10,341 nucleotides of DNA from Erysipelothrix rhusiopathiae (GTDB lineage: Bacteria; Bacillota_I; Bacilli_A; Erysipelotrichales; Erysipelotrichaceae): positions 1 through 10,341 of the forward strand of contig CADBTK010000042.1 of assembly GCA_902797585.1 (NCBI GenBank). Direction: 5' to 3'. Positions 1 through 10,341 of this stretch are shown here, piece after piece (within the stretch, counting starts at the first letter, position 1; every line of letters starts with the position of its first letter). The notes under the pieces are model-generated. The model saw only the letters and a program-made list of their open reading frames with translations, searched no databases and had not been told where the DNA came from. The position numbers and the translations under genes were made by a program.

Positions 1-1418
1 ACACTTAAATCAAAGTAGTAATCCAATAAGTTTTTATATTGTTGGTAAAAGGCATCGAAAGTCTTAAAAGAGGATAAAGGCTTTAACTTTACTGGACCTG
101 CCTTATATTTTCCATCCATTGGGTCGATTCCTTCATTCATAGAAATCTGAAGAATTTTCAACAAATTCAATAATGTATTTGGCGTACCTACACTTTTTCC
201 TTGAATGACATATTCTCCACATCCAAATGGCACATATTGTTGGGCAACTTTCTTATCTACACCCATCGCATATTGAACCGCTGGAACATTGACATCATCG
301 TTATATAAAGTTGGATAGGTTGCTCCAGAAGCGATACAATCATAGGCCATCTCTTTGATATCTTGTGGTGTATGTTTATCGAATCTCAATGTAAATTGGG
401 GTTCTACAAAACGTGTATTTTTACATACTTCTAAACATAAACGCGTAAAGGTATCACAAGCTGCTTCATTTTCTCTTCCTTGACCACCTACAATAATTCG
501 CCCATTAACAGTAGTTCGTCTATTCTCTATCAACACCCACAAAGAATGAACCATGTCATAAGCTTGTTGCCAAGTAATGCGTTTGGCTTCTAAATCTCTT
601 TGTAAAAATGGTCCTAAGACAATATCTAAGCGTCCATAATTGATACATCCTGCCACTAATGCATATAACCAAAATAGTTGTAATGCTTGATGAAACGTTT
701 TTGGTTTATGATCACGAATATAAATAAGATCTTCTTTCATCCAAATCAATTGTTTTTGACGAGGAATACTTTCTTGTGAATAAACCTCATCAATCTTTTG
801 TACTTGATAATCAATCACTGTTTTAAACAATTCCATGGCTTGAATACTTTGTTCAATAAACTCATTGGATTCTTGTTGGGATAATAAATCAATAATCCCA
901 TTGATTCCACAATCAACCAATTTTTTATAGTCCAACATCATTCCACTCAGTCTTGCGGTAGCCATAAATGGATAAGTACAATCAATAAATCGACCCGTTG
1001 TATCGTCATTTAAAACATCTTGACAATAAATGGATTTCACATCATTTTCTTGCCAATAGTCATAGAGTAAATCCACTCGATTTTGTTGATCTAGTGGCAA
1101 TTGTTTTTGAAATTTACGCAATTCATGAAAGACACAATAATGTCCGACTCCGCCGATGCTGGTGACACTACCAAAACCAATCGGTAAAAACTCCAATCTT
1201 CCAGCAATCAAATCATTTTTTTGGATCTTGGCAAACATCTTTGGAAAGAGCACTTTTAAACAAGCCAATTCTCGCTTAGCTTTTTCTTGCGTGGAAAAGG
1301 AGGCATGTATACGTGTATACTCTTCCATAATTTCCAATTGTTCTAATAATGGTTTTTCACAAGGAATTCGTTGTGATACATTCACATTTTGTTCCCCTTC
1401 AATATTTATCCGTGCCAT
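1..1418 (-). CDS. Glycyl radical enzyme (pyruvate formate-lyase superfamily), uncharacterised class, C-terminus cut off
   Basis: An open frame with no stop runs from an ATG at 1418 off the left edge, giving 472 residues of a family whose members are usually about 750-850 long. The start is set by AGGAG at 1432-1428, 9 bases upstream. Family hallmarks seen in order: DLIAGR near the N-terminus, GRLDIVLGPFLQRDLE, the glycine motif IVGGQGRENEAACDTF, EPQFTLRFDKHTP, YNDDVNVPA, and the thiyl-radical loop PFGCGEY with Cys400 and Glu402. In dehydratase-like family members such as glycerol dehydratase and choline lyase the loop reads GCVE, with Cys carrying the radical and Glu acting as general base; here Val is Gly and a Tyr follows. 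True pyruvate formate-lyase has two adjacent Cys, so this is not PFL. The C-terminal glycyl radical loop (RVxG type) and any radical-SAM activase lie outside the window. Substrate unknown. The enzyme would act in the cytoplasm without oxygen. Confidence 0.88.
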   Translation of the reverse strand, partial: MARINIEGEQNVNVSQRIPCEKPLLEQLEIMEEYTRIHASFSTQEKAKRELACLKVLFPKMFAKIQKNDLIAGRLEFLPIGFGSVTSIGGVGHYCVFHELRKFQKQLPLDQQNRVDLLYDYWQENDVKSIYCQDVLNDDTTGRFIDCTYPFMATARLSGMMLDYKKLVDCGINGIIDLLSQQESNEFIEQSIQAMELFKTVIDYQVQKIDEVYSQESIPRQKQLIWMKEDLIYIRDHKPKTFHQALQLFWLYALVAGCINYGRLDIVLGPFLQRDLEAKRITWQQAYDMVHSLWVLIENRRTTVNGRIIVGGQGRENEAACDTFTRLCLEVCKNTRFVEPQFTLRFDKHTPQDIKEMAYDCIASGATYPTLYNDDVNVPAVQYAMGVDKKVAQQYVPFGCGEYVIQGKSVGTPNTLLNLLKILQISMNEGIDPMDGKYKAGPVKLKPLSSFKTFDAFYQQYKNLLDYYFDLS

Positions 1419-1438
1419 ATACCTTTTCTCCTATTTTC

Positions 1439-1466
1439 ATTATATCTTCAAAACGTTCACAGTCAA
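1439..1466 (-). promoter_or_regulatory. Housekeeping promoter of the glycyl radical enzyme gene
   Basis: Read on the minus strand, TTGACT (1466-1461) and a perfect TATAAT (1444-1439) are separated by 16 bases. The predicted start of transcription is near 1432, which leaves a leader of only about 14 bases beginning at the AGGAG ribosome binding site. The promoter lies just beyond the pyk terminator, so the gene is probably transcribed independently of pfkA-pyk. Confidence 0.72.
1448..1461. promoter_or_regulatory. Cre-like CcpA site inside the promoter spacer
   Basis: The plus strand reads TCAAAACGTTCACA. Against the Gram-positive catabolite-response consensus TGNAANCGNWNNCW it has a single mismatch, C for G at position 2. 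It keeps the central CG and the CA end. It fills almost the whole gap between the -35 and -10 boxes of the glycyl radical enzyme promoter, where bound CcpA is known to block RNA polymerase. The match is degenerate and AT-rich DNA yields chance hits, so this is tentative. Confidence 0.4.
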
Positions 1467-1480
1467 TCAACTTCGTTCAC
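1454..1480. repeat. Direct repeat of CGTTCAC, 20-base period
   Basis: CGTTCAC occurs at 1454-1460 and 1474-1480, exactly 20 bases apart, or about two helical turns. The copies flank the -35 box (1461-1466) of the glycyl radical enzyme promoter on both sides. Such phasing is typical of operators that bind a dimer on one face of the DNA. The copy at 1454 is also part of the cre-like site. The regulator is not identifiable here. Confidence 0.4.
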
Positions 1481-1498
1481 TTTGTGTCATGTCAAACC

Positions 1499-1525
1499 AA
1501 AAGAAAACCAGTCTTTCGACTGGTT
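1499..1525 (-). terminator. Rho-independent terminator of the pfkA-pyk operon
   Basis: On the minus strand an 8-bp perfect stem AACCAGTC/GACTGGTT (1525-1506) closes a GAAA tetraloop and is followed by TTCTTTT. The stem starts one base after the pyk stop codon. The stable tetraloop and T-rich tail make this a convincing intrinsic terminator. Confidence 0.85.
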
Positions 1526-1526
1526 C

Positions 1527-2939
1527 TTATAGTTTTTCAATACGCATCATATTTGTGTTTCCAGATCCTACAGGGTATCCAGCAACAACAATGATGTAAT
1601 CTCCAGGGTGGCATCCGTGCGCTAAGGCAACGTTACGAGCCAACTCTGTATCATTTTGTTGAGAGTTTTGGAATGAAGAAACAACTGGACAAACTCCAAA
1701 TACATTCAACAAACTACGTTGTGTTACTTCATCGAAACATACGGCCAATACCGGAGCAATTGGACGGAATTTTGCTAAACGACGAGCAGAGTTCCCTCTT
1801 TGTGTAAAGGCAACAATGCATTTAATATCAATTGCTAAAGATGTTTCAGCAGCTGAAATACCAATGGCATCTTCCAATGTACGTTTAGATGTTTTAATTT
1901 CTTGATTCAAACGGTCTTCATAAGGAATCATTGGTTCAATTGCTGTGGCAATGTAGTTCATAGTCTTAACTGACTCTTCTGGATACATACCCGCTGCACT
2001 TTCCCCAGATAACATAATGGCATCAGTACCATCCATGATTGCGTTGGCAACATCACTTGCTTCAGCACGAGTTGGACGTGGATTTCCTTGCATACTTTCT
2101 AACATGTGAGTGGCAGTAATAACTGGTTTCCCTAATTCATTGGCAATAGAGATAATTTTCTTTTGGTAAATTGGCACCAATTGTAAAGATACATCTACCC
2201 CTAAATCACCACGGGCAACCATAACACCATCACTGACTTCTAAGATGTCACGTAAGTTATCGAAACCTTCTTGGTTTTCGATCTTTGGAATGACTTGGAT
2301 CGCATCTTTGTTTTCATCAGCTAATAATGCTTTTACAGCTAATACATCTTCTCTACGACGAGTGAAACTTGCCGCAATAAAGTCTACATCATTTTGTGCT
2401 CCAAAACGAATATCTGCTTCATCTTTTTCAGATAAGAATGGCATACTTAGAATAATACCTGGTAAGTTACACCCTTTACGACTCTTTAGTTCATGTGGGT
2501 TTTCTACAGTACCAGTTAATACATCTGGTTGAACATCGGTAAATGTAATTTTCATTTTCCCATCGTCAACCAAAATATAATCTCCGACTTTTACATCGTT
2601 AAATACTTCTGGACAATTTAAAGTAAAACGTTCTTTATTACCTAGAACTTGTTCTTTTACTAATTGAACTGTATCTCCTTGTTCAAAGGAAGCACTTCCT
2701 CCTTCGAATTCACCAATACGAATTTCTGGCCCTTTTGTATCCAATAAAATCGCAACTGGTTTATTCAATTCTTTTGATACTTCACGAATTCGATCAATAC
2801 GTGTTTTATGTTCTTGGTAATCCCCGTGAGAGAAATTCAAACGAGCTACATTCATTCCTGCTTTTACCAATTTGGTAATCATTTCTTTTGACTCACTGGC
2901 AGGCCCAATGGTACATACAATTTTTGTTTTTCTATACAT
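1527..2939 (-). CDS. pyk: Pyruvate kinase
   Basis: Makes pyruvate and ATP from phosphoenolpyruvate and ADP, the last step of glycolysis, in the cytoplasm. The protein is 470 residues, the usual short bacterial form without the extra C-terminal PEP-utiliser-like domain of Bacillus enzymes. An in-frame TTG at 2945 lies one base from the ribosome binding site; the ATG at 2939 sits 7 bases from AGGA (2950-2947) and is preferred. Visible motifs: KIVCTIGPAS, NFSHGDY, LLDTKGPEIR (the Glu associated with K+-dependent enzymes), catalytic Lys219 and metal ligand Glu221 in IPKIENQEG, Asp245 in ARGDLG, Thr277, and NPRPTRAEASDVANA. Oddities: the usual TATQML reads TATHML (His278), and the residues after GDLGV are SLQLVP where relatives have an acidic pair. 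It lies 20 bases downstream of pfkA and is probably cotranscribed. Confidence 0.97.
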   Translation of the reverse strand: MYRKTKIVCTIGPASESKEMITKLVKAGMNVARLNFSHGDYQEHKTRIDRIREVSKELNKPVAILLDTKGPEIRIGEFEGGSASFEQGDTVQLVKEQVLGNKERFTLNCPEVFNDVKVGDYILVDDGKMKITFTDVQPDVLTGTVENPHELKSRKGCNLPGIILSMPFLSEKDEADIRFGAQNDVDFIAASFTRRREDVLAVKALLADENKDAIQVIPKIENQEGFDNLRDILEVSDGVMVARGDLGVDVSLQLVPIYQKKIISIANELGKPVITATHMLESMQGNPRPTRAEASDVANAIMDGTDAIMLSGESAAGMYPEESVKTMNYIATAIEPMIPYEDRLNQEIKTSKRTLEDAIGISAAETSLAIDIKCIVAFTQRGNSARRLAKFRPIAPVLAVCFDEVTQRSLLNVFGVCPVVSSFQNSQQNDTELARNVALAHGCHPGDYIIVVAGYPVGSGNTNMMRIEKL

Positions 2940-2959
2940 AATCAATTCCTTTTCCTTTT

Positions 2960-3922
2960 TTATACTAAATCTTCAAACAAACGCAACATCGGTTTGGATG
3001 GATCTGCTTGCATTGTTAATGCTTCTTCAATTGGGATTGCCACAATTTCATTGTTTTGGTATCCCACGCATAGACCACCACGTCCTTTTTCGAGGCAGTC
3101 AATAGCCGCTTTCCCTAAACGACTCGCTAATACTCGATCAAATGGCACAGGAGCTCCACCCCTTTGAATATGCCCCAAGATGGTTGCACGCGCAGCAAAT
3201 TGTGTTTCATCGCTAATACGTTTAGCCAATTTGTGGACATCTCCCATTTTCTCGCTAATAATCACAATCGCATGATCTTTCTTACGAATGTAATGAAGAT
3301 CATTTAATTGTTGGATGATACGGTCTTCGTTATATCCTGTTGAACGAGTAACTAAGACTTCTGCTCCACAAGAAATAGCCGTAGATACCGCTAAATCATC
3401 ACAGCGGTTTCCCATTACTTCCACAATCGAGCATCGGTGGTGAGAACTGGATGTATCTCGTAGTTTATCCACACATTCTACCGCTGTGTTCACCGCTGTT
3501 TGATACCCAATTGTATATTGGGTACTGGCAATATCGTTATCAATGGTTCCTGGAATACCCACACATTGGATCCCCATTTTTGTTAGGCTCAAGGCTCCTC
3601 TGTATGTTCCGTCTCCACCAATGGTAACAAGTGCTTCAATCCCGTATTGTTCTAGAACTTCAACAGCTTTTTTACGAACTTCATACTCTTCAAATTCTTT
3701 TAAACGGGCACTTCCTAAAAATGTTCCTCCACGGTTTAGAATGCTGCTGACCGAATCAATTCCCAATGGAAAAATATCTCCATCAACCAATCCTTTGTAT
3801 CCATGTCGGATTCCATAAACTTCCATTCCTCTGGCAATTGCCACACGTGTAACAGCACGAATTGCTGCGTTCATTCCTGGCGAATCTCCCCCAGAAGTAA
3901 GGACTCCAATTTTCTTGATCAT
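2960..3922 (-). CDS. pfkA: ATP-dependent 6-phosphofructokinase
   Basis: Phosphorylates fructose 6-phosphate to fructose 1,6-bisphosphate, the committed step of glycolysis. It has 320 residues, matching the E. coli and Bacillus enzymes and colinear with them. The ATG at 3922 is chosen because a full AGGAGGTG (3936-3929) precedes it by 8 bases after the core; an upstream in-frame GTG at 3931 is part of that ribosome binding site. Motifs: nucleotide-binding GVLTSGGDSPGMN, GTFLGSAR, GGDGTYRGA, catalytic Asp128 in GTIDND, and HIQRGG with the substrate His and Arg. Allosteric-site residues Arg22, Arg26 and the DTSSSH Arg are present, so ADP/PEP control is likely. Oddity: the substrate loop MGR reads MGNRCDDLA, with Asn172 where E. 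coli has Arg (codon AAC at 3409-3407). It is first gene of the pfkA-pyk operon. Confidence 0.97.
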   Translation of the reverse strand: MIKKIGVLTSGGDSPGMNAAIRAVTRVAIARGMEVYGIRHGYKGLVDGDIFPLGIDSVSSILNRGGTFLGSARLKEFEEYEVRKKAVEVLEQYGIEALVTIGGDGTYRGALSLTKMGIQCVGIPGTIDNDIASTQYTIGYQTAVNTAVECVDKLRDTSSSHHRCSIVEVMGNRCDDLAVSTAISCGAEVLVTRSTGYNEDRIIQQLNDLHYIRKKDHAIVIISEKMGDVHKLAKRISDETQFAARATILGHIQRGGAPVPFDRVLASRLGKAAIDCLEKGRGGLCVGYQNNEIVAIPIEEALTMQADPSKPMLRLFEDLV

Positions 3923-3962
3923 GGAATTCACCTCCTGTGATCATCCTTTAAAAACTTTTTAC

Positions 3963-3990
3963 ATTATATTACAAACTTGTTAGGTGTCAA
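3963..3990 (-). promoter_or_regulatory. Promoter of the pfkA-pyk operon
   Basis: On the minus strand a perfect TTGACA (3990-3985), a 16-base spacer and a perfect TATAAT (3968-3963) form a consensus housekeeping promoter. Transcription should begin near 3956, giving a leader of about 34 bases that contains the AGGAGGTG site. Confidence 0.9.
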
Positions 3991-4003
3991 TATGTAATCT
4001 AAG

Positions 4004-4017
4004 TGAAAACGGTGCCA
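4004..4017. promoter_or_regulatory. Catabolite-response element (cre) for CcpA upstream of pfkA
   Basis: TGAAAACGGTGCCA fits every fixed position of TGNAANCGNWNNCW; only the optional leading W is missed (G at 4003). Its centre is about 54 bases upstream of the predicted pfkA start and clear of the -35 box. Upstream cre sites at such distances activate, as known for Bacillus ackA and for the Lactococcus pfk-pyk-ldh operon. I infer CcpA activation of glycolysis. An effect on the divergent acyltransferase gene is possible but less clear. Confidence 0.65.
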
Positions 4018-4073
4018 CTTTGTCATTTTTTTCACAATTCCATATTTTTTTATTCAGAAAGACAAACAATATC

Positions 4074-4101
4074 TTGTTTCTATCACTATAAATGATAGAA
4101 T
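4074..4101 (+). promoter_or_regulatory. Possible promoter of the acyltransferase operon
   Basis: TTGTTT (4074-4079), a 16-base spacer and TAGAAT (4096-4101) preceded by TG (an extended -10). It is the best plus-strand candidate in the 194-base divergent region. Weakness: transcription would start near 4108, leaving only about 9 bases before the ATG and cutting into the AAAGGT ribosome binding site at 4105-4110, so the true promoter may lie upstream. Confidence 0.35.
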
Positions 4102-4116
4102 AAAAAAGGTAAATTT

Positions 4117-5541
4117 ATGGTATTTTCAAGCTTATTATTCGTCTTTGCGTTTTTCGCATTGCAGATGATGGTCTACTTACTGGTAGATGATGAAAAAAAG
4201 AACAAAGTATTGCTAGGGTTCTCCCTAGTATTTTATGCATGGGGGGGTCCACGCTACATCTTTCTTTTGTTAATTGATACCTTTGCCTCATGGTTTTTCG
4301 CCCTACAAATACACCAACACAAGAAAAAAAGCGATAAGAAGCTTTTCTTGCTTGGAGAATGTTTGGTTGTATTAGGGCTTTTATTTATTTTCAAATACAC
4401 AACTTTTATACTCGGAACCACAAATGCTCTCTTTAATTTTCCAAAAGTAGTTCCTAATATCGTATTACCAATCGGTATCTCTTTCTATACTTTCCAATTA
4501 TTATCTTATGTCATTGATGTTTACCGTGGACATGTCGCTCCACAAAAACATTTTTGGAAACTATTATTATATTCTAGTTTATTTCACCAATGTATTGCCG
4601 GTCCTATTGTCCGTTACGAAACTGTCGCCAACGAAATAGATCATCGAAAAGTCAATTGGAATGATATCTATTATGGTGTACGTCGCTTCAGTATTGGTTT
4701 AGCTAAAAAAGCACTGCTTGCTAATGGTTGTGCCAGTGTTGCTGATACTTTATTGCCAAGTGGATTGGATGCCATTCATTCTCAAAGCGTCGTAGGATTA
4801 TGGTTCGGACTTTTATTCTATTCCTTACAAATCTATTTAGATTTTTCAGCATACTCTGATATGGCCATTGGTATGGGGCGTATGGTTGGTTTCCACTATT
4901 TGGAAAACTTTAACTATCCTTACCTAGCCGATAGTGTTCAAGATTTCTGGAGACGTTGGCATATATCATTAGGTTCTTTTTTCAGAGACTATGTTTATAT
5001 TCCCCTAGGAGGTTCCCGTTGTTCTGATCATTTAATTGTTCGAAATATGTTCATTGTTTGGTTATTAACTGGACTTTGGCACGGAGCGAACTGGAACTAT
5101 GTTTTATGGGGATTATACTTCTTTATATTCTTATACTTGGAACGTTTTGTCTTCCATATGAAACAATGGACAACCTTACGCAAACACTTATATGCATGTT
5201 CTGTTATCTATTTTGGGTGGTTATTATTCCGTCATGAAAATATGTCCGAAGCGATGGCTATTCTATTTGGATTGTTTGGAATTGGCGTGAAAGGATTCTT
5301 TGATATGAGTACACAATCCTTGTTATTGAGCAATTGTTTCTTCTTACCTATTAGCATGTTGGCATGTACTCCAATTTCTAAATATTTCCGCAGCCTTCTA
5401 CACTACGGAGCCAAAAAGAATCAATTAATATTCATCATTTACAACGCAACAGAAGTTATTCTTCCTCCATTGTTACTAATATTAGCTGTACTTGCATTAA
5501 TTGGAGATAGTTATAATCCATTCTTATACTTCCAATTCTAG
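4117..5541 (+). CDS. MBOAT-family membrane O-acyltransferase (AlgI/DltB-like)
   Basis: A 474-residue multi-spanning membrane protein. Members move an acyl group, usually acetyl, across the membrane for attachment to an exported polymer. Seen: hydrophobic segments over most of the length; YAWGGPRYIFLL near residue 40; PIGISFYTFQLLSYVIDVYRG around 118-136; DFWRRWHISLGSFFRDYVYIPLGG with His282; and TGLWHGANWNYVLWG with the conserved catalytic-type His322. Length and motif order match AlgI/PatA-type proteins better than DltB, and no other dlt gene is present. The start ATG follows AAAGGT by 6 bases. A run of seven G (4241-4247) lies in the codons for Trp42-Gly-Gly. The gene for its DHHW partner begins 12 bases downstream, so the two form an operon. 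Substrate polymer unknown. Confidence 0.92.
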   Translation: MVFSSLLFVFAFFALQMMVYLLVDDEKKNKVLLGFSLVFYAWGGPRYIFLLLIDTFASWFFALQIHQHKKKSDKKLFLLGECLVVLGLLFIFKYTTFILGTTNALFNFPKVVPNIVLPIGISFYTFQLLSYVIDVYRGHVAPQKHFWKLLLYSSLFHQCIAGPIVRYETVANEIDHRKVNWNDIYYGVRRFSIGLAKKALLANGCASVADTLLPSGLDAIHSQSVVGLWFGLLFYSLQIYLDFSAYSDMAIGMGRMVGFHYLENFNYPYLADSVQDFWRRWHISLGSFFRDYVYIPLGGSRCSDHLIVRNMFIVWLLTGLWHGANWNYVLWGLYFFIFLYLERFVFHMKQWTTLRKHLYACSVIYFGWLLFRHENMSEAMAILFGLFGIGVKGFFDMSTQSLLLSNCFFLPISMLACTPISKYFRSLLHYGAKKNQLIFIIYNATEVILPPLLLILAVLALIGDSYNPFLYFQF

Positions 5542-5553
5542 AAAGGAGAAATT

Positions 5554-6855
5554 GTGAACCGAAAGAAACGTATCCTTTTACAAAAATCACGACGTATCAG
5601 TGTTTTAGTTTTTTCTATCCTAATGATATTAGGATGTTTTATTGGTGCTTTATTCTTTGTTCGACCAACCACTTCATCGGTTGAAAAACGGACATTAACG
5701 ACCTTCCCTTCATTTACTATTTCTTCCTTTTTAGATGGATCTTACTTTTCTCAAATATCTACTTGGTATGCTGATACATATCCAGGACGAGATACATTAA
5801 TCTCTATGAATTCGAAAGTAAAAGATACCTATGGAATTCAAGGTCAAACTATGATGGTAGGGGGTCAAACACAAAGCGATGATATTCCTGATGAAGCAAC
5901 ACAAGGAAAAACAAGAAAAAAGAAAAAAGCAGAAGTGCCTGACCAAACACAAATGCAAGAAGAAATGCAAAACCAAATCATGCAAGGTCTATATGTAGAG
6001 AATGGAGCCGCCTATGGTATGTACTACTTTACGCAAGAGGCAGCCGATACATATATCGATGGAATCAACAAAAGTGCCAAGAAATTAGATGGTACAACGA
6101 AAGTCTATTCCATCCTAGTTCCAAACAACTCTATTGTTTTAGATAAAAAATTACAAGATAAACTAGGAGGTTCCGACCAAGAAAAAGCCATCGATTACTA
6201 TATGGATTCTTATTCTGATAAAGTCGGAAAAGTGGATACTATCCAACGATTGAAAAAACATCGTGATGAATATTTATACTTTAAAACCGATCACCATTGG
6301 ACCGCTTTAGGTGCCTATTATGCCTACCAAGAATTCTGTGAAGTAAAAGGAATCAAAGCGCATAAATTGGATTATTATAAAACACAAAAGAGTTCTCCAT
6401 TTTTAGGAAGTTATTATGCAGAGCTTCAATTAGAGGATATGGAAAAAGATCCAGATAAAGTAATCGCATATATCCCAAAGGCAACCAATAAACTAACATT
6501 CTGGCGCGATGGAGTGAAATACGATGGAAATGTCATTACGTCTCCAGATCTCTGGGATGAGAATTCGCAATATATGCAATTTATACATGGAGACCAACCA
6601 TTAACAAAAATCACAAATAAAAAGATTAAGGATGGATCTAGTTGTGTTGTATTAAAAGAAAGTTACGGAAACTGTTTTGTGCCATTCTTAGTTGACCATT
6701 ATGAAACTGTGTATGTCATGGATTTCCGTTATACTGATGAAGATCCATATAAATTTTGTAAAGAAAAGAAAATCGATGACTTAATTGTCATCAATAACAT
6801 TCAAATCATTTCCAACAATGAAGTATCTACTGTAATTGGTGATATGATTTCTTAA
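5554..6855 (+). CDS. DHHW-family extracytoplasmic acetyltransferase partner (AlgJ/AlgX-like)
   Basis: The 433-residue protein has a basic N-terminus and one membrane segment at about residues 15-36, with the rest predicted outside the cell. Translation starts at GTG, with AAAGGAG (5542-5548) five bases upstream. The fold family is SGNH-like: the DHHW motif spans residues 246-249 and KESYGN contains Ser370; Asp246, His248 and Ser370 correspond in order to the Asp-x-His and Ser of AlgX. RTLTTFPSF and the region after it are also typical of DHHW proteins. Such proteins receive the acyl group moved by the MBOAT protein and place it on a polysaccharide. Oddity: residues about 105-145 form a hydrophilic Gln/Glu/Lys/Met-rich insert with RKKKK, probably a flexible linker. 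The polymer acetylated cannot be told from the sequence. Confidence 0.88.
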   Translation: MNRKKRILLQKSRRISVLVFSILMILGCFIGALFFVRPTTSSVEKRTLTTFPSFTISSFLDGSYFSQISTWYADTYPGRDTLISMNSKVKDTYGIQGQTMMVGGQTQSDDIPDEATQGKTRKKKKAEVPDQTQMQEEMQNQIMQGLYVENGAAYGMYYFTQEAADTYIDGINKSAKKLDGTTKVYSILVPNNSIVLDKKLQDKLGGSDQEKAIDYYMDSYSDKVGKVDTIQRLKKHRDEYLYFKTDHHWTALGAYYAYQEFCEVKGIKAHKLDYYKTQKSSPFLGSYYAELQLEDMEKDPDKVIAYIPKATNKLTFWRDGVKYDGNVITSPDLWDENSQYMQFIHGDQPLTKITNKKIKDGSSCVVLKESYGNCFVPFLVDHYETVYVMDFRYTDEDPYKFCKEKKIDDLIVINNIQIISNNEVSTVIGDMIS

Positions 6856-6897
6856 AAAAAGCGAAGAGATGAATAGAATTCCCTCTCTTCGTTTTTA
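6856..6897. terminator. Bidirectional intrinsic terminator between convergent genes
   Basis: CGAAGAGA (6862-6869) pairs with TCTCTTCG (6884-6891), and the loop holds a small inner hairpin GAAT-AGA-ATTC. A7 precedes the stem and T5 follows it, so the structure has a T-tail on both strands. It sits between the stop codons of the DHHW gene and the convergent transporter gene and can serve both. Confidence 0.85.
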
Positions 6898-8703
6898 TTA
6901 TGATTTTATAAGAATCTCATCCAATTTTTTAAAGTATTCCTCTTTCACTTCTTGGTATCGTCTATTAAAATCTTCATCTTTTCCGGAATGTAAATAATTC
7001 GAATATTCATGCGATTCTGCACCTAATTCCGGTTTTACACGAGCCACAATGGCTAATCCAATATTTGAACAAATGTCGGATATTCTTTCCAAATCACCCA
7101 ATACATCTACGTAATTGGTTCCTGTCATATAATTACAATCTCCCTTTGAAAGACGCGCCAAGTGATTATTGGATAAAATATCCACTAAATCATCAAAAAC
7201 TTCTTCCATAGGCTCAATGGTCATTGCTGCTTCAATATCTCGAGATTGAAAAGCTGTTTTCGCACAAGCCAATTCTTTTTCCAACAATTCTTGTACAATA
7301 TCCAATTCGCGTAGAGCTTGAGAAGAAAAAGAAGCTTTTCGATCATGTAATATTTGTGCTGTTTCGGACAAGTTAAGTGCATAATCTCCCAAACGTTCAA
7401 AGTCTGTTACCATTTTATAGTATTGATTAAAAATGGATGTATTTGGACCTTGTTTCAATGTTGGCGCTAAAGAAGCCATATAATTTCCAGTCTTATCACT
7501 CATTCGATCAATGTCTGCTTCTTTTTCCTTAATTGTTTGCATCGTTTTTTCATCATAGGATCGAATCATTTCTAATGCATCCAAAATATTCGATTGCGCT
7601 AAATCAAAAATAGCAGACAAACTGTCATAACAACTTGATAAAGCTAAGGCTGGAGTTCCAAAGAAGACTGGGTTCAATCCATCCATCTTATCTTCTATAA
7701 AACTATCTGGTTGTGCAGGTTGTTTTACAATCCGTTCACTTATCTGCTCAAACACCATCAAGAATGGGAATAAACCAATAGCAGCCACTAAATTAAAGAT
7801 TGTATTTGTATCTGCAATAATCCCTGAGTTCACGTTTTCATTCCATAATCCATCTAGTATTCCCATCCAATGTAGAATACTAACACCTATAAGAATCATC
7901 AAACATTTAGCGATATTATAAATAATATTGAAAACCCCTACTTGTTTCGCTTCCGGTTTTGCCCCTAAGGAACAAACCAACCCCGTTGTCAAACAATCTC
8001 CCATGAAAATCCCGACAATCACTGCATATATGGCATTAAAAGTTAGTTGCCCACTAGAAGAAAAAGCTTGCAGAATCCCTACACTGGCTGAAGCGCTTTG
8101 TAAAATAAAAGCAACAACTCCACCGGTCATAAATCCAAAGAATGGATTATTACCAAGACTGGTCAATAAGTTTTCTGCCATCCCACTTTGAATCACAGAA
8201 TCCACAGAAGATGTCATCGTCAATAATCCTGTAAATAGAATTCCAAATCCTATCGCAATATTGGCAATTGTTTTGGAATTCTTAAATTCTTTCCCCATCA
8301 GTAAGATAATCCCAATGATTAGTGATAAAGGAGCCAAAGTAGATGGCGTAAACAAACGTAAGATTCCACTAGCAGATGAGTCCACATCCAACAAACGAAT
8401 AATTTGTCCTGTCACAGTAGTCCCAACGTTAGCTCCTACCACTATTCCCAATGATTTTCGATTAGAAATAATTCCAGCAGCAACCAACCCAGAAGTAATC
8501 ACAATAGTTGCTTTGGAAGATTGGATAATTGCTGTTAATAAAAGTCCTAACAGAAAGGCTTTTATTTGATTTCCTGTCACATATTCAATGGCGTGTTTCA
8601 ATGTCCCAGATGAGCTTTCCTTCAATCCATCTCCCATAAGACGCATTCCATATAAAAACATGGCCAACCCACCGAACAAACTTAATAGATCAAATATTGT
8701 CAT
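6898..8703 (-). CDS. Na+/phosphate cotransporter-family protein with C-terminal PhoU domain
   Basis: The 601-residue protein is predicted to move phosphate with sodium, or a related anion. The ATG at 8703 is chosen because AGAGG (8715-8711) lies 7 bases upstream; an in-frame extension to 8742 has no such site. Residues 1-320 are membrane-spanning and contain the two inverted-repeat signatures of the PNaS family: QSSKAT at 61-66 and QSASAS at 202-207, plus GANVGTTVTG at 90-99. Residues about 350-595 are a soluble helical PhoU-like domain with two metal-binding-type motifs, DFERLGD (434-440) and DLERISD (537-543). Both QSS motifs differ from the usual QSSSA; Lys64 in the first is notable. No phosphate regulon gene is nearby. 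Direction of transport is not determinable: some relatives export phosphate. Confidence 0.9.
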   Translation of the reverse strand: MTIFDLLSLFGGLAMFLYGMRLMGDGLKESSSGTLKHAIEYVTGNQIKAFLLGLLLTAIIQSSKATIVITSGLVAAGIISNRKSLGIVVGANVGTTVTGQIIRLLDVDSSASGILRLFTPSTLAPLSLIIGIILLMGKEFKNSKTIANIAIGFGILFTGLLTMTSSVDSVIQSGMAENLLTSLGNNPFFGFMTGGVVAFILQSASASVGILQAFSSSGQLTFNAIYAVIVGIFMGDCLTTGLVCSLGAKPEAKQVGVFNIIYNIAKCLMILIGVSILHWMGILDGLWNENVNSGIIADTNTIFNLVAAIGLFPFLMVFEQISERIVKQPAQPDSFIEDKMDGLNPVFFGTPALALSSCYDSLSAIFDLAQSNILDALEMIRSYDEKTMQTIKEKEADIDRMSDKTGNYMASLAPTLKQGPNTSIFNQYYKMVTDFERLGDYALNLSETAQILHDRKASFSSQALRELDIVQELLEKELACAKTAFQSRDIEAAMTIEPMEEVFDDLVDILSNNHLARLSKGDCNYMTGTNYVDVLGDLERISDICSNIGLAIVARVKPELGAESHEYSNYLHSGKDEDFNRRYQEVKEEYFKKLDEILIKS

Positions 8704-8878
8704 AATAAATCCTCTATTCTTTATTATCATATCAAAAGGCAATAGATAGCCCTATAAAGATGCACAATAAAAGAGTTATTAAAATGTCTAAACCTTTAGT
8801 ATGTTCTCATTCTAACAACCCTATATTTAAGTCATACGAATTTCATGTAAAACTTCTGTATATTTTTAAAAGAATAAA
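8704..8878. other. Intergenic region upstream of the transporter gene
   Basis: A 175-base AT-rich gap between two minus-strand genes. It holds the transporter's ribosome binding site at 8715-8711. I see no good hairpin terminator after the glycosyltransferase stop codon and no strong promoter. The best candidate, TTTAGA-N17-TATTGT on the minus strand, matches only 4 of 6 bases in each box. Readthrough from the glycosyltransferase gene is therefore possible. Confidence 0.5.
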
Positions 8879-9946
8879 TTAATATTTTCCCGTCACTATC
8901 ATTTGAATTTTCTTCACAATATACCAGGTACTAACCAATTCATATTTCCATAAAAAGATCATCAACCGAGTAGATAAATCTAGTGTTTTACTCAATTGTT
9001 TTTCTTTAGAAATATTTTTAATTTCTTGATATAAATCAGGATAAGATTTTATATCTTTTTTTAATGTATTTACTCTCTTCATTCTTTCAAAAAGGCCCAA
9101 AGAAGCAGTACTTTCTAACAATCGATTCTTTATTTTATTCATGAAATAATATTGGTATCCAGCACATACTGGATCTTTATAGAATGAACGTCTTTTTGCC
9201 AATATATCTAACGAAGAAAAGACCGTATCATTATTTGCCCCTTTTAAAGCTTGATCCTGTAAAGAATCATCTATTTGATGAACAATATAATATGGATGAG
9301 GATCATATCCAAATCTTTTTACATAATGAAGCATGTCATAATTGAATAATAGATCTTCTCCATAGGCTAAGGTCTCATCAATGTACAAATGGTTAGATCG
9401 AATCAATTGTGTTCGATACATCCCCAACACATTGCTCATAAGTCCACGTCCCCATTTTCCATTAAAACAAATATTCAAAAATTCATTTTTATCTTGGCTT
9501 GTTAAGATTTTTCGTTGGCTATAATAGAAAAATATATCGGAATCATCTATTTCTTTTCCACTGGAATCATCAATGGTGCGACAATTGTGATACATCCAAT
9601 CCAATTGTTCATTTTCCATCCAAGCTATTTTTTCTTCCAATGCTCGTGTTTCAATTTCATCATCCGCATCTATAAAACATAGATACTTCCCTTTTGCCTT
9701 TTCTATTCCAAGATTACGACAATAACTAACCCCTTTATTCTCATGAGTAAAAACAACAATACGATCATCGTTTTGTTCATATTCCTTCATGATTGATAAA
9801 GTACCATCATGTGAACCGTCATCAATAAGAATCAATTCATAATCAGTAAATGTATTATTTAGTACACTATTAATCGATCTATCAATGAATCGTTGTGCAT
9901 TATAAGCTGGGATTACAATTGTAAGTAATGGATGAACTCTAGACAT
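8879..9946 (-). CDS. Family 2 glycosyltransferase
   Basis: A 355-residue enzyme expected to transfer a sugar from a nucleotide-sugar donor to a cell-surface glycan, working at the inner face of the membrane. The N-terminal GT-A domain is clear: LLTIVIPAYNAQRFIDRSI, the nucleotide-binding LIDDGSHDGT (Asp42-Asp43), NKGVSYCRNLGIEKAKGKY, and the metal-binding FIDADDE (Asp93-Asp95). A GEDLLFN motif near residue 215 supplies the probable catalytic base region. The last ~40 residues are basic and partly hydrophobic and may touch the membrane; there is no signal peptide. ATG 9946 is the only sensible start, yet it lacks a purine-rich ribosome binding site (GATTTAGAC precedes it). A terminator lies 28 bases upstream, so it probably has its own promoter. 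The sugar and acceptor are unknown. Confidence 0.93.
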   Translation of the reverse strand: MSRVHPLLTIVIPAYNAQRFIDRSINSVLNNTFTDYELILIDDGSHDGTLSIMKEYEQNDDRIVVFTHENKGVSYCRNLGIEKAKGKYLCFIDADDEIETRALEEKIAWMENEQLDWMYHNCRTIDDSSGKEIDDSDIFFYYSQRKILTSQDKNEFLNICFNGKWGRGLMSNVLGMYRTQLIRSNHLYIDETLAYGEDLLFNYDMLHYVKRFGYDPHPYYIVHQIDDSLQDQALKGANNDTVFSSLDILAKRRSFYKDPVCAGYQYYFMNKIKNRLLESTASLGLFERMKRVNTLKKDIKSYPDLYQEIKNISKEKQLSKTLDLSTRLMIFLWKYELVSTWYIVKKIQMIVTGKY

Positions 9947-9952
9947 GTCTAA

Positions 9953-9963
9953 ATCATATCATA
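9953..9963 (-). promoter_or_regulatory. Overlapping -10 boxes close to the glycosyltransferase start
   Basis: On the minus strand TATGATATGAT (9963-9953) contains two overlapping TATGAT boxes, each 5 of 6 bases of consensus. The nearer one ends exactly 6 bases before the ATG, where transcription would begin at the start codon. No good -35 box is seen at the right distance; that stretch is occupied by the upstream terminator stem. Confidence 0.35.
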
Positions 9964-9973
9964 TTGTATAAAT

Positions 9974-9998
9974 GAAAAAGTGGATAGAATCCACTTTC
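9974..9998 (-). terminator. Intrinsic terminator of the gene at the right edge
   Basis: On the minus strand an 8-bp stem AAAGTGGA/TCCACTTT (9997-9977) with a five-base loop follows the stop codon by one base; the T run extends two bases past the stem before a C. The short tail makes it moderate in strength. It lies just before the glycosyltransferase promoter region. Confidence 0.7.
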
Positions 9999-10341
9999 TT
10001 AAAACAATTCTTCTTTTCCAAAATACTCTTGGGCTAATTTCTTATTCCCTTCTTCAAACTTTTTTTTAAACTCATCTATTTCTTTTGCACTAAATCCTTT
10101 ATTTTCAATCGTTTCCTTTTTTCCTTTTGAAGCTTTTAAAGACCATCGCCAGATGAGACTTTTCCATTTCGTTTTCAAAGGATTGGGCAAGATTTTAGCC
10201 ACCATATTTAAATAGCGTTTTTTCTTCGCAATAGAGAATACGATAGAAGGATTGGAATAAATCCCTTTTTGTTGGTCAAATCTATCATCCCATTGTAATC
10301 CAATAGTCAAAATGAAATCTGTAAATAGATTCCCTTGCAAG
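9999..10341 (-). CDS. C-terminal end of an unrecognised protein, possibly polysaccharide-modifying (sulfotransferase-like)
   Basis: The last 113 residues of a gene that continues past the right edge; the TTG at 10340 is probably an internal codon, not a start. The end is rich in Lys, Trp and aromatic residues and finishes FKKKFEEGNKKLAQEYFG then KEELF. The pattern, an Asn-Pro-Ser segment, a RYLN helix and a terminal helix ending in Asn-x-x-Leu-Ala-x-x-Tyr-Phe-Gly, resembles the tails of sulfotransferase-like and similar proteins of surface-polysaccharide clusters. That is recall of a pattern, not a firm match, and no catalytic motif is visible. The neighbouring glycosyltransferase agrees with a role in glycan assembly. 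No membrane segment is evident in this part. Confidence 0.6.
   Translation of the reverse strand, partial: LQGNLFTDFILTIGLQWDDRFDQQKGIYSNPSIVFSIAKKKRYLNMVAKILPNPLKTKWKSLIWRWSLKASKGKKETIENKGFSAKEIDEFKKKFEEGNKKLAQEYFGKEELF

Follow-up and report, generated by a model that had tools for sequence, protein, structure and literature searches.

Many of the abundant glycyl radical enzymes (GREs) of the gut have no known function, according to a review (PMC11574389). Two of the described members, PflD and YbiW, open 1,5-anhydromannitol-6-phosphate and 1,5-anhydroglucitol-6-phosphate, respectively, to 1-deoxyfructose-6-phosphate after uptake by a phosphotransferase system (PTS) (PMC12441222; PDB titles 8id7 and 8id0). 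The gene studied here lies at the left end of a 10,341-nucleotide stretch of a contig assigned to Erysipelothrix rhusiopathiae (CADBTK010000042.1, positions 1 to 10,341, assembly GCA_902797585.1, forward strand), the whole of which we call the window. An earlier note made from its letters had recognised a GRE with a GCGEY active-site loop and proposed an enzyme class without a known substrate; its list of known GRE substrates was incomplete, as it omitted the 1,5-anhydrohexitol 6-phosphates of YbiW and PflD, which are relevant here. Judged by sequence, the encoded enzyme belongs to a GRE clade without an assignable reaction and is a member of no family tested, and in related genomes its gene is usually accompanied by those for a radical-SAM activase and a NanE-type sugar-phosphate epimerase.

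The minus-strand open reading frame (ORF) encodes 472 residues from 1418 to 3, runs off the window edge, which is also the contig start, and matches the pyruvate formate-lyase (PFL)-like family PF02901 with 251 bits. Codon mapping of the loop PFGCGEYVIQGK places G399 at 222-224, C400 at 219-221, G401 at 216-218, E402 at 213-215 and Y403 at 210-212, and confirms the motif, coordinates and Cys400/Glu402 numbering of the earlier note. As in other members of the GRE family, Cys400 is taken as the thiyl cysteine and Glu402 as the catalytic glutamate. The window's own assembly (G000; 254 contigs, 68.6% complete) yielded neither the missing 3' part of the gene nor a matching activase. Among the matches listed, the two nearest full-length relatives have 754 residues and are 93% identical to the window protein across all of its 472 residues, and one of them, P0001, served as proxy for the complete protein. 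The C-terminal glycyl radical loop, for which a check had been proposed, is present in P0001 as RVAGYSA (within DLIVRVAGYSA); it is missing from the window because the contig end truncates the gene before this region. Cys400, Glu402 and Gly731 (P0001 numbering) are invariant across 37 GREs, of which 35 are clade or sister-group members and two come from outside. An AlphaFold2 model of P0001 (pLDDT 91.0) has the GRE fold and gives alignments of similar quality with a large number of GREs; the top Foldseek matches are glycerol and 1,2-propanediol dehydratases, with the best GRE rows close together and no family singled out. The window protein is thus assigned as a GRE with a PFL-like barrel, the Cys/Glu pair and, as read from P0001, the glycyl loop.

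Among the best 120 of 2190 relatives, the loop reads PFGCGEF in 106, PFGCGEY in 11, PFGCTEF in two and PFGCTEY in one. Outside the clade, all 23 non-PFL GREs compared have GC[V/I]E, two PFL-type enzymes have adjacent cysteines (CC), and one further GRE has GCND. Of the proposed GCGEY marker, the unusual loop stands as that of a GC[G/T]E clade, the signature these alignments give; Tyr after Glu is no hallmark and was rejected as one, since Phe takes its place in 108 of those 120 relatives, and the Gly may give way to Thr. When a FastTree tree is rooted on a single PFL-type sequence, the Gly/Thr-loop sequences form one clade (39 tips with the sister group, support 0.92; 35 tips without it, support 1.0), and P0001 groups separately from YbiW, PflD and PFL.

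P0001 is 23.7% identical to Escherichia coli YbiW and 24.5% to PflD, both of which have the GC[V/I]E loop in place of GC[G/T]E, and 20-26% identical to the other non-clade GREs aligned. Among solved structures, its strongest sequence matches are to glycerol dehydratase (1r8w, 250 bits), CutC (225 bits) and YbiW (210 bits), yet identity to the B12-independent glycerol and 1,2-propanediol dehydratases is 21-27% in two aligners. For all 12 NCBIfam models matched, P0001 falls below the cut-off, with 305.1 bits against 678.2 for the glycerol/propanediol dehydratase subfamily (TIGR01774). CutC and HypD have the Cys-x-Glu pair and the fold in common with the clade, but P0001 reaches 240.6 bits against a cut-off of 1050 for CutC and 266.6 against 1100 for HypD, and it is likewise far under the equivalog cut-offs for HpfG/HpsG, the indoleacetate and 4-hydroxyphenylacetate decarboxylases, and PFL. 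PDB matches to isethionate sulfite-lyase (7kq3, 5ymr; 132-138 bits) and the arylsuccinate synthases (9o8u, 4pkc; 115-141 bits) are weaker than that to glycerol dehydratase, and no model of either is among the NCBIfam matches. Membership in the characterised families covered by the tree and the NCBIfam cut-offs is rejected, and on these tests the earlier proposal of a class without a known substrate stands. Many polar residues constant in the clade (R156, N260, R301, R307, R315, E519, N640 and others) differ in four YbiW/PflD-type rows, and because these residues are absent there the clade likely acts on a different substrate from YbiW and PflD. We recognised no description of the clade in the literature as judged by titles and abstract beginnings, with subscription papers outside the search, and make no claim that it is undescribed.

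With no downstream neighbours of the GRE gene visible in the window, related loci were used for context. Forty loci were collected (23 from named genomes, 11 and five from other relatives, and one plasmid-collection record), three were dropped as broken or short (L026, L027, L068), and the remaining 37 were merged at 95% identity into 31 non-redundant groups; short loci with only the GRE (L028-L039, L069, L070), sister-clade loci (L071-L074, L076) and loci of other GREs stood outside this tally. Neighbours within 9 kb of the GRE gene were recognised by BLAST to examples with a Pfam or NCBIfam family assignment. The radical-SAM activase that the earlier note had suggested seeking is present in 29 of the 31 groups, and a NanE-type hexose-6-phosphate C2-epimerase in 24. 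The Faecalitalea activase scores 326 bits against a cut-off of 174 for the GRE-activating family TIGR02494. Regulators of the DeoR (12/31) and AraC (9/31) types recur, and a minority of groups has a ManA-like isomerase (7/31), an ROK kinase (6/31), a Gfo/Idh/MocA oxidoreductase (6/31), a mannose-type PTS (5/31), a DeoC-type aldolase (5/31) or an HAD phosphatase (5/31). Transporters and possible downstream enzymes, for which the earlier note had also advised a look, are found, with kinases, in related loci, where they point to a sugar phosphate, but not in the window.

Gene order is compact in several genomes: GRE-activase-DeoR-NanE in Holdemanella (L008) and Faecalitalea (L005), PTS-NanE-GRE-activase downstream of a LevR-type activator (L066), and ATP-binding cassette (ABC) transporter-ROK-NanE-GRE-activase (L021), with a ManA-like gene inserted between GRE and activase in L025. 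Parabacteroides distasonis has consecutive ROK-NanE-GRE-activase genes, with identities to the query of 84% for NanE and 61.5% for the GRE; its record (L075) is labelled a plasmid, bears ftsH, rodA, nusB and coaE, and may be a piece of chromosome. The recurrent aldolase was at one point considered LacD-like, but PF01791 covers both types, and two copies beside other GREs (L077, L078) pass the TIGR00126 cut-off of 117 with 222 and 192 bits, so DeoC type was adopted. A GH94-like protein at L013 had no PDB sequence match at E 5.

Some clusters hold additional GREs. L023 (5166-20213; also L022) has four tandem paralogues with loops GCGEM, GCGEM, GCGEQ and GCGEM, preceded by a single activase gene and two NanE-like genes. 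A DeoC-type aldolase and a mannose-type PTS lie upstream of them, and an HAD phosphatase and a flavin mononucleotide (FMN) oxidoreductase downstream. L086 (6330-8660) contains a second GRE with the loop GCND, which lacks the Glu, and the glycyl loop RVTGYSA; it adjoins a zinc alcohol dehydrogenase, an FGGY kinase and a DeoC-type aldolase, and its best solved match is diol dehydratase 5i2a (274 bits). At L078 (7981-19680), a YbiW-like GRE is clustered with a RACo-like activator, a corrinoid-binding protein and URO-D-type proteins. The cluster also encodes OMPdecase-family and SIS proteins, whose identity to hexulose-6-phosphate synthase and phosphohexuloisomerase from L019 is 54-55%, and its make-up suggests a sugar pathway linked to O-demethylation.

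The Faecalitalea NanE matches PF04131 with 170 bits and PRK01130 with 245 bits against a cut-off of 189, and the Clostridia copies are likewise above the NCBIfam NanE cut-off. In an alignment with columns read by eye, the GRE-linked rows retain Q11, R40, K63, D124, E180 and R208 of Staphylococcus aureus NanE and most retain Y149, residues to which PMC8482478 gives catalytic and substrate-binding roles. The same paper describes NanE as anchoring the 6-phosphate and acting on the open-chain aldehyde, and defines a true NanE by the signature hydrophobic-P-hydrophobic-I-G-I-hydrophobic-K-basic. The GRE-linked rows depart from this signature, reading mostly P[VIM]IGL[WYHD]K[VI] without a basic residue after Lys, and most carry PTLYGYT and MEGH motifs, from which L023, L065, L066 and L067 deviate in part. 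Canonical and GRE-linked copies have their catalytic residues in common but diverge in motif just behind the catalytic Lys and around the Glu/phosphate site. Because four of the seven genomes checked have another, higher-scoring NanE elsewhere, the GRE-linked copy is probably a paralogue and not the ordinary N-acetylmannosamine-6-phosphate (ManNAc-6P) epimerase.

The two genes also occur together across genomes. In a phylum sample of 392 genomes, nine have the GRE clade, and the GRE-linked NanE (at least 55% identity) is present in six of these nine and in none of the other 383 (Fisher 1.7e-11, uncorrected for kinship); among 41 relatives it is present in 10 of 12 GRE genomes and none of 29 others (5.9e-8). 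The 55% line was chosen after the hits were seen. One exception to co-occurrence, G000, is the window's own incomplete genome, and in the sample of relatives the NanE of G003 passes a looser threshold only. In G003 (contig C63; L026, L068), stops or frame breaks interrupt the GRE gene and the adjoining NanE-like gene alike, as if the pathway were decaying as a whole. Among 391 Clostridia-type genomes, a GRE is found at 1e-120 in four, with the main clade only in the genome at the centre of the sample (G408), which is also the one genome with this NanE version at 1e-75. At 1e-150 the GRE is found in 3/150, 2/86 and 2/80 genomes, counts that include the sample centres and come from overlapping samples.

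The sister clade is about 40% identical to the main clade and has the GCGEY loop in common with it; its glycyl loop reads RV/RIGGFSA in the four loci read, and R156, N260, R307, R315, E519 and N640 are kept in 4/4 rows. On the Persicobacter plasmid pPP4 (L076, 14215-24247), a phytanoyl-CoA dioxygenase, the sister-clade GRE with its activase, a malectin-domain protein and a GH20 enzyme are encoded in this order, with sulfatases nearby. Elsewhere, the neighbours of sister-clade GREs vary between loci, with a URO-D-type protein and an arginase-family protein at L071 (16124-17173) and L072 (12203-13189).

With an intact set of catalytic residues, an activase and a NanE partner, and recurrent sugar-phosphate genes around it (sugar kinase, PTS and aldolase in a minority of loci), the clade would act as a radical eliminase in the catabolism of a hexose- or hexosamine-type 6-phosphate, a proposal whose chances we put as roughly even. 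The substrate class is inferred from a NanE that anchors the 6-phosphate and works on the open-chain aldehyde; action of NanE before the GRE, elimination as the reaction, and cleavage by an aldolase are inferred as well. An imported hexose or hexosamine analogue would be phosphorylated at C6 by an ROK kinase or a mannose-type PTS, and the NanE-like partner would set the C2 stereochemistry of the open-chain aldose 6-phosphate. The activase would place a radical on Gly731 (P0001 numbering), from which it would pass to Cys400; the Cys400 thiyl radical would abstract a hydrogen atom from the carbinol carbon held by Glu402, and loss of the group on the neighbouring carbon would give a deoxy-carbonyl sugar phosphate. 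From this product, a class I aldolase, of DeoC type in some genomes, may then release a small aldehyde or ketone and a tetrose or triose phosphate. A bolder reading, which we rate as less likely than not, is a new radical reaction whose substrate would be the 6-phosphate of an aldohexose or N-acetylhexosamine rather than an anhydrohexitol, with the GRE and a NanE paralogue dedicated to it working as a pair. The literature, without subscription papers, yielded no paper pairing the glycyl radical with N-acetylmannosamine-6-phosphate, and the two found to join a GRE with deoxyribose-phosphate aldolase concern microcompartments, as judged by title and abstract beginning.

Several observations weigh against the eliminase proposal. 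NanE is absent within 9 kb in seven of the 31 groups (L007, L011, L018, L059, L062, L063, L086), three of them (L018, L059, L086) being truncated on one side within 2 kb, and the genomes of L059 and L063 have a NanE on another contig. No NanE match was reported for the GRE-bearing genome G034, and two GRE-less genomes of the 392 hold NanE relatives at 48% and 45% identity, under the 55% line. NanE was not recognised beside the sister-clade GRE in five loci, two of them on short contigs, and because this group has the same loop and polar residues without that partner, NanE may not be tied to the GRE chemistry itself; of all the results, this one counts most against such a tie. His164, His281, Ser282 and Asp447, pocket residues of glycerol dehydratase, are not conserved in the clade alignment. 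DeoC genes stand near the GRE in just the 5/31 groups given above, where they were assigned by BLAST to the L077 and L078 copies. The NanE reaction requires an aldehyde, but the 2-deoxyaldose that DeoC naturally uses would be formed from a compound at the alditol level, and no single redox-balanced route combining NanE, GRE and DeoC could be assembled.

A third anhydroglycolysis enzyme, which would open a 1,5-anhydrohexitol 6-phosphate of other stereochemistry or ring to a 1-deoxyketose phosphate for splitting by an aldolase, has its precedent in YbiW and PflD, and the ROK kinase and mannose-type PTS would be expected to phosphorylate glucose or mannose analogues. The GRE-linked NanE type also adjoins GREs of that kind: in G012 it lies on a different contig from the clade GRE, next to a PflD orthologue (889 bits to 8yjo) that stands with an FSA-type aldolase on the strand opposite to NanE, and in G007 it is clustered on the same strand with a YbiW-like GRE (576 bits to YbiW) and a DeoC-type aldolase. 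DeoC-type aldolases accompany the YbiW-like GRE of L078 and the main clade alike. This alternative is nevertheless unlikely given the low identity to YbiW and PflD, the clade-constant R156, N260, R307, R315, E519 and N640 that differ in the YbiW/PflD-type rows, and the lack of an aldehyde that an anhydrohexitol could offer NanE.

A specific version of the eliminase proposal, whose probability falls within that of the whole, has an N-acetylhexosamine 6-phosphate of the ManNAc-6P/N-acetylglucosamine-6-phosphate series as substrate, with acetamide or water eliminated by a CutC-like C-N or C-O cleavage. It would suit the catalytic residues kept by the GRE-linked NanE, together with Y149 and F72 in most rows; in PMC8482478, Tyr149 of SaNanE contacts the acetamide and Phe72 occupies the site of an acetamide-contacting Tyr in CpNanE. 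Also in its favour are the L067 NanE, which is nearer the canonical kind (GTTL and AEG motifs) and lies beside a mannose-type PTS and SIS proteins, and the GH20 and sulfatase genes near the Persicobacter sister-clade GRE. We consider it quite unlikely, as the second NanE of four genomes and the divergent GRE-linked motifs (GL[WYHD]K[VI], PTLYGYT and MEGH in most rows) speak against it, and no NagA or NagB was found among the neighbours put through Pfam or NCBIfam, a subset of the neighbouring ORFs. No GRE is known to release acetamide. It is very unlikely that NanE accompanies the GRE merely through a shared regulon or neighbourhood while the GRE, like known eliminases, converts an unrelated small molecule such as a diol, an amino alcohol or an acid, since the NanE version and the GRE co-occur in samples of the window's family, order and phylum and the same NanE-GRE adjacency is found in Clostridia and Parabacteroides.

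Features of the window gene and its upstream region are collected in the table. The hairpin gave two sites, one per strand of a single hairpin, against a shuffle mean of 0.0, and the 55-base stretch around it folds with -18.4 kcal/mol. The pfkA-pyk operon was dropped as a clue to GRE function because this terminator-like hairpin lies between the two. Farther along the plus strand (4117-6855) are an MBOAT O-acyltransferase with weak similarity to DltB and a DHHW protein with weak similarity to AlgX, a probable pair for O-acetylation of a cell-surface polysaccharide, followed on the minus strand (6898-8742) by a Na/Pi cotransporter fused with PhoU-like domains.

Table. Coordinates of the truncated glycyl radical enzyme gene and nearby features in the window.
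Feature	Position	Strand	Remarks
Glycyl radical enzyme gene, 5' part	3..1418	minus	472 of ~754 codons; PF02901; contig end cuts gene
Active-site loop G399-C400-G401-E402-Y403	210..224	minus	Codon mapping; G399, C400 and E402 invariant in the 37-GRE alignment
AGGAGA, ribosome-binding-site-like	1427..1432	minus	8 nt upstream of ATG; sequence inspection
Promoter-like TTGACT-16-TATAAT	1439..1466	minus	11/12 match; 1 found against a shuffle mean of 0.8, only suggestive
Terminator-like hairpin, 3' of pyruvate kinase	1504..1527	minus	Between pfkA-pyk and the GRE gene

Under the bolder reading of a new radical reaction, the pathway would be carried by the gut-associated genera Holdemanella, Faecalitalea, Thomasclavelia and Parabacteroides, and by other anaerobes such as Clostridium lacusfryxellense. 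The existence of abundant GREs without known function was already known (PMC11574389); the advance here lies in the partner gene and a short list of substrates. A C2-epimerase for sugar 6-phosphates can now be named as the clade's recurrent partner, joined in a minority of loci by genes for a kinase, a PTS and an aldolase, so that an open-ended substrate search narrows to a few sugar phosphates. The ROK-NanE-GRE-activase genes of Parabacteroides distasonis form a compact unit amenable to expression and assay. If the reaction is indeed new, radical cleavage of a C-O or C-N bond on an ordinary sugar phosphate would join anaerobic carbohydrate metabolism.
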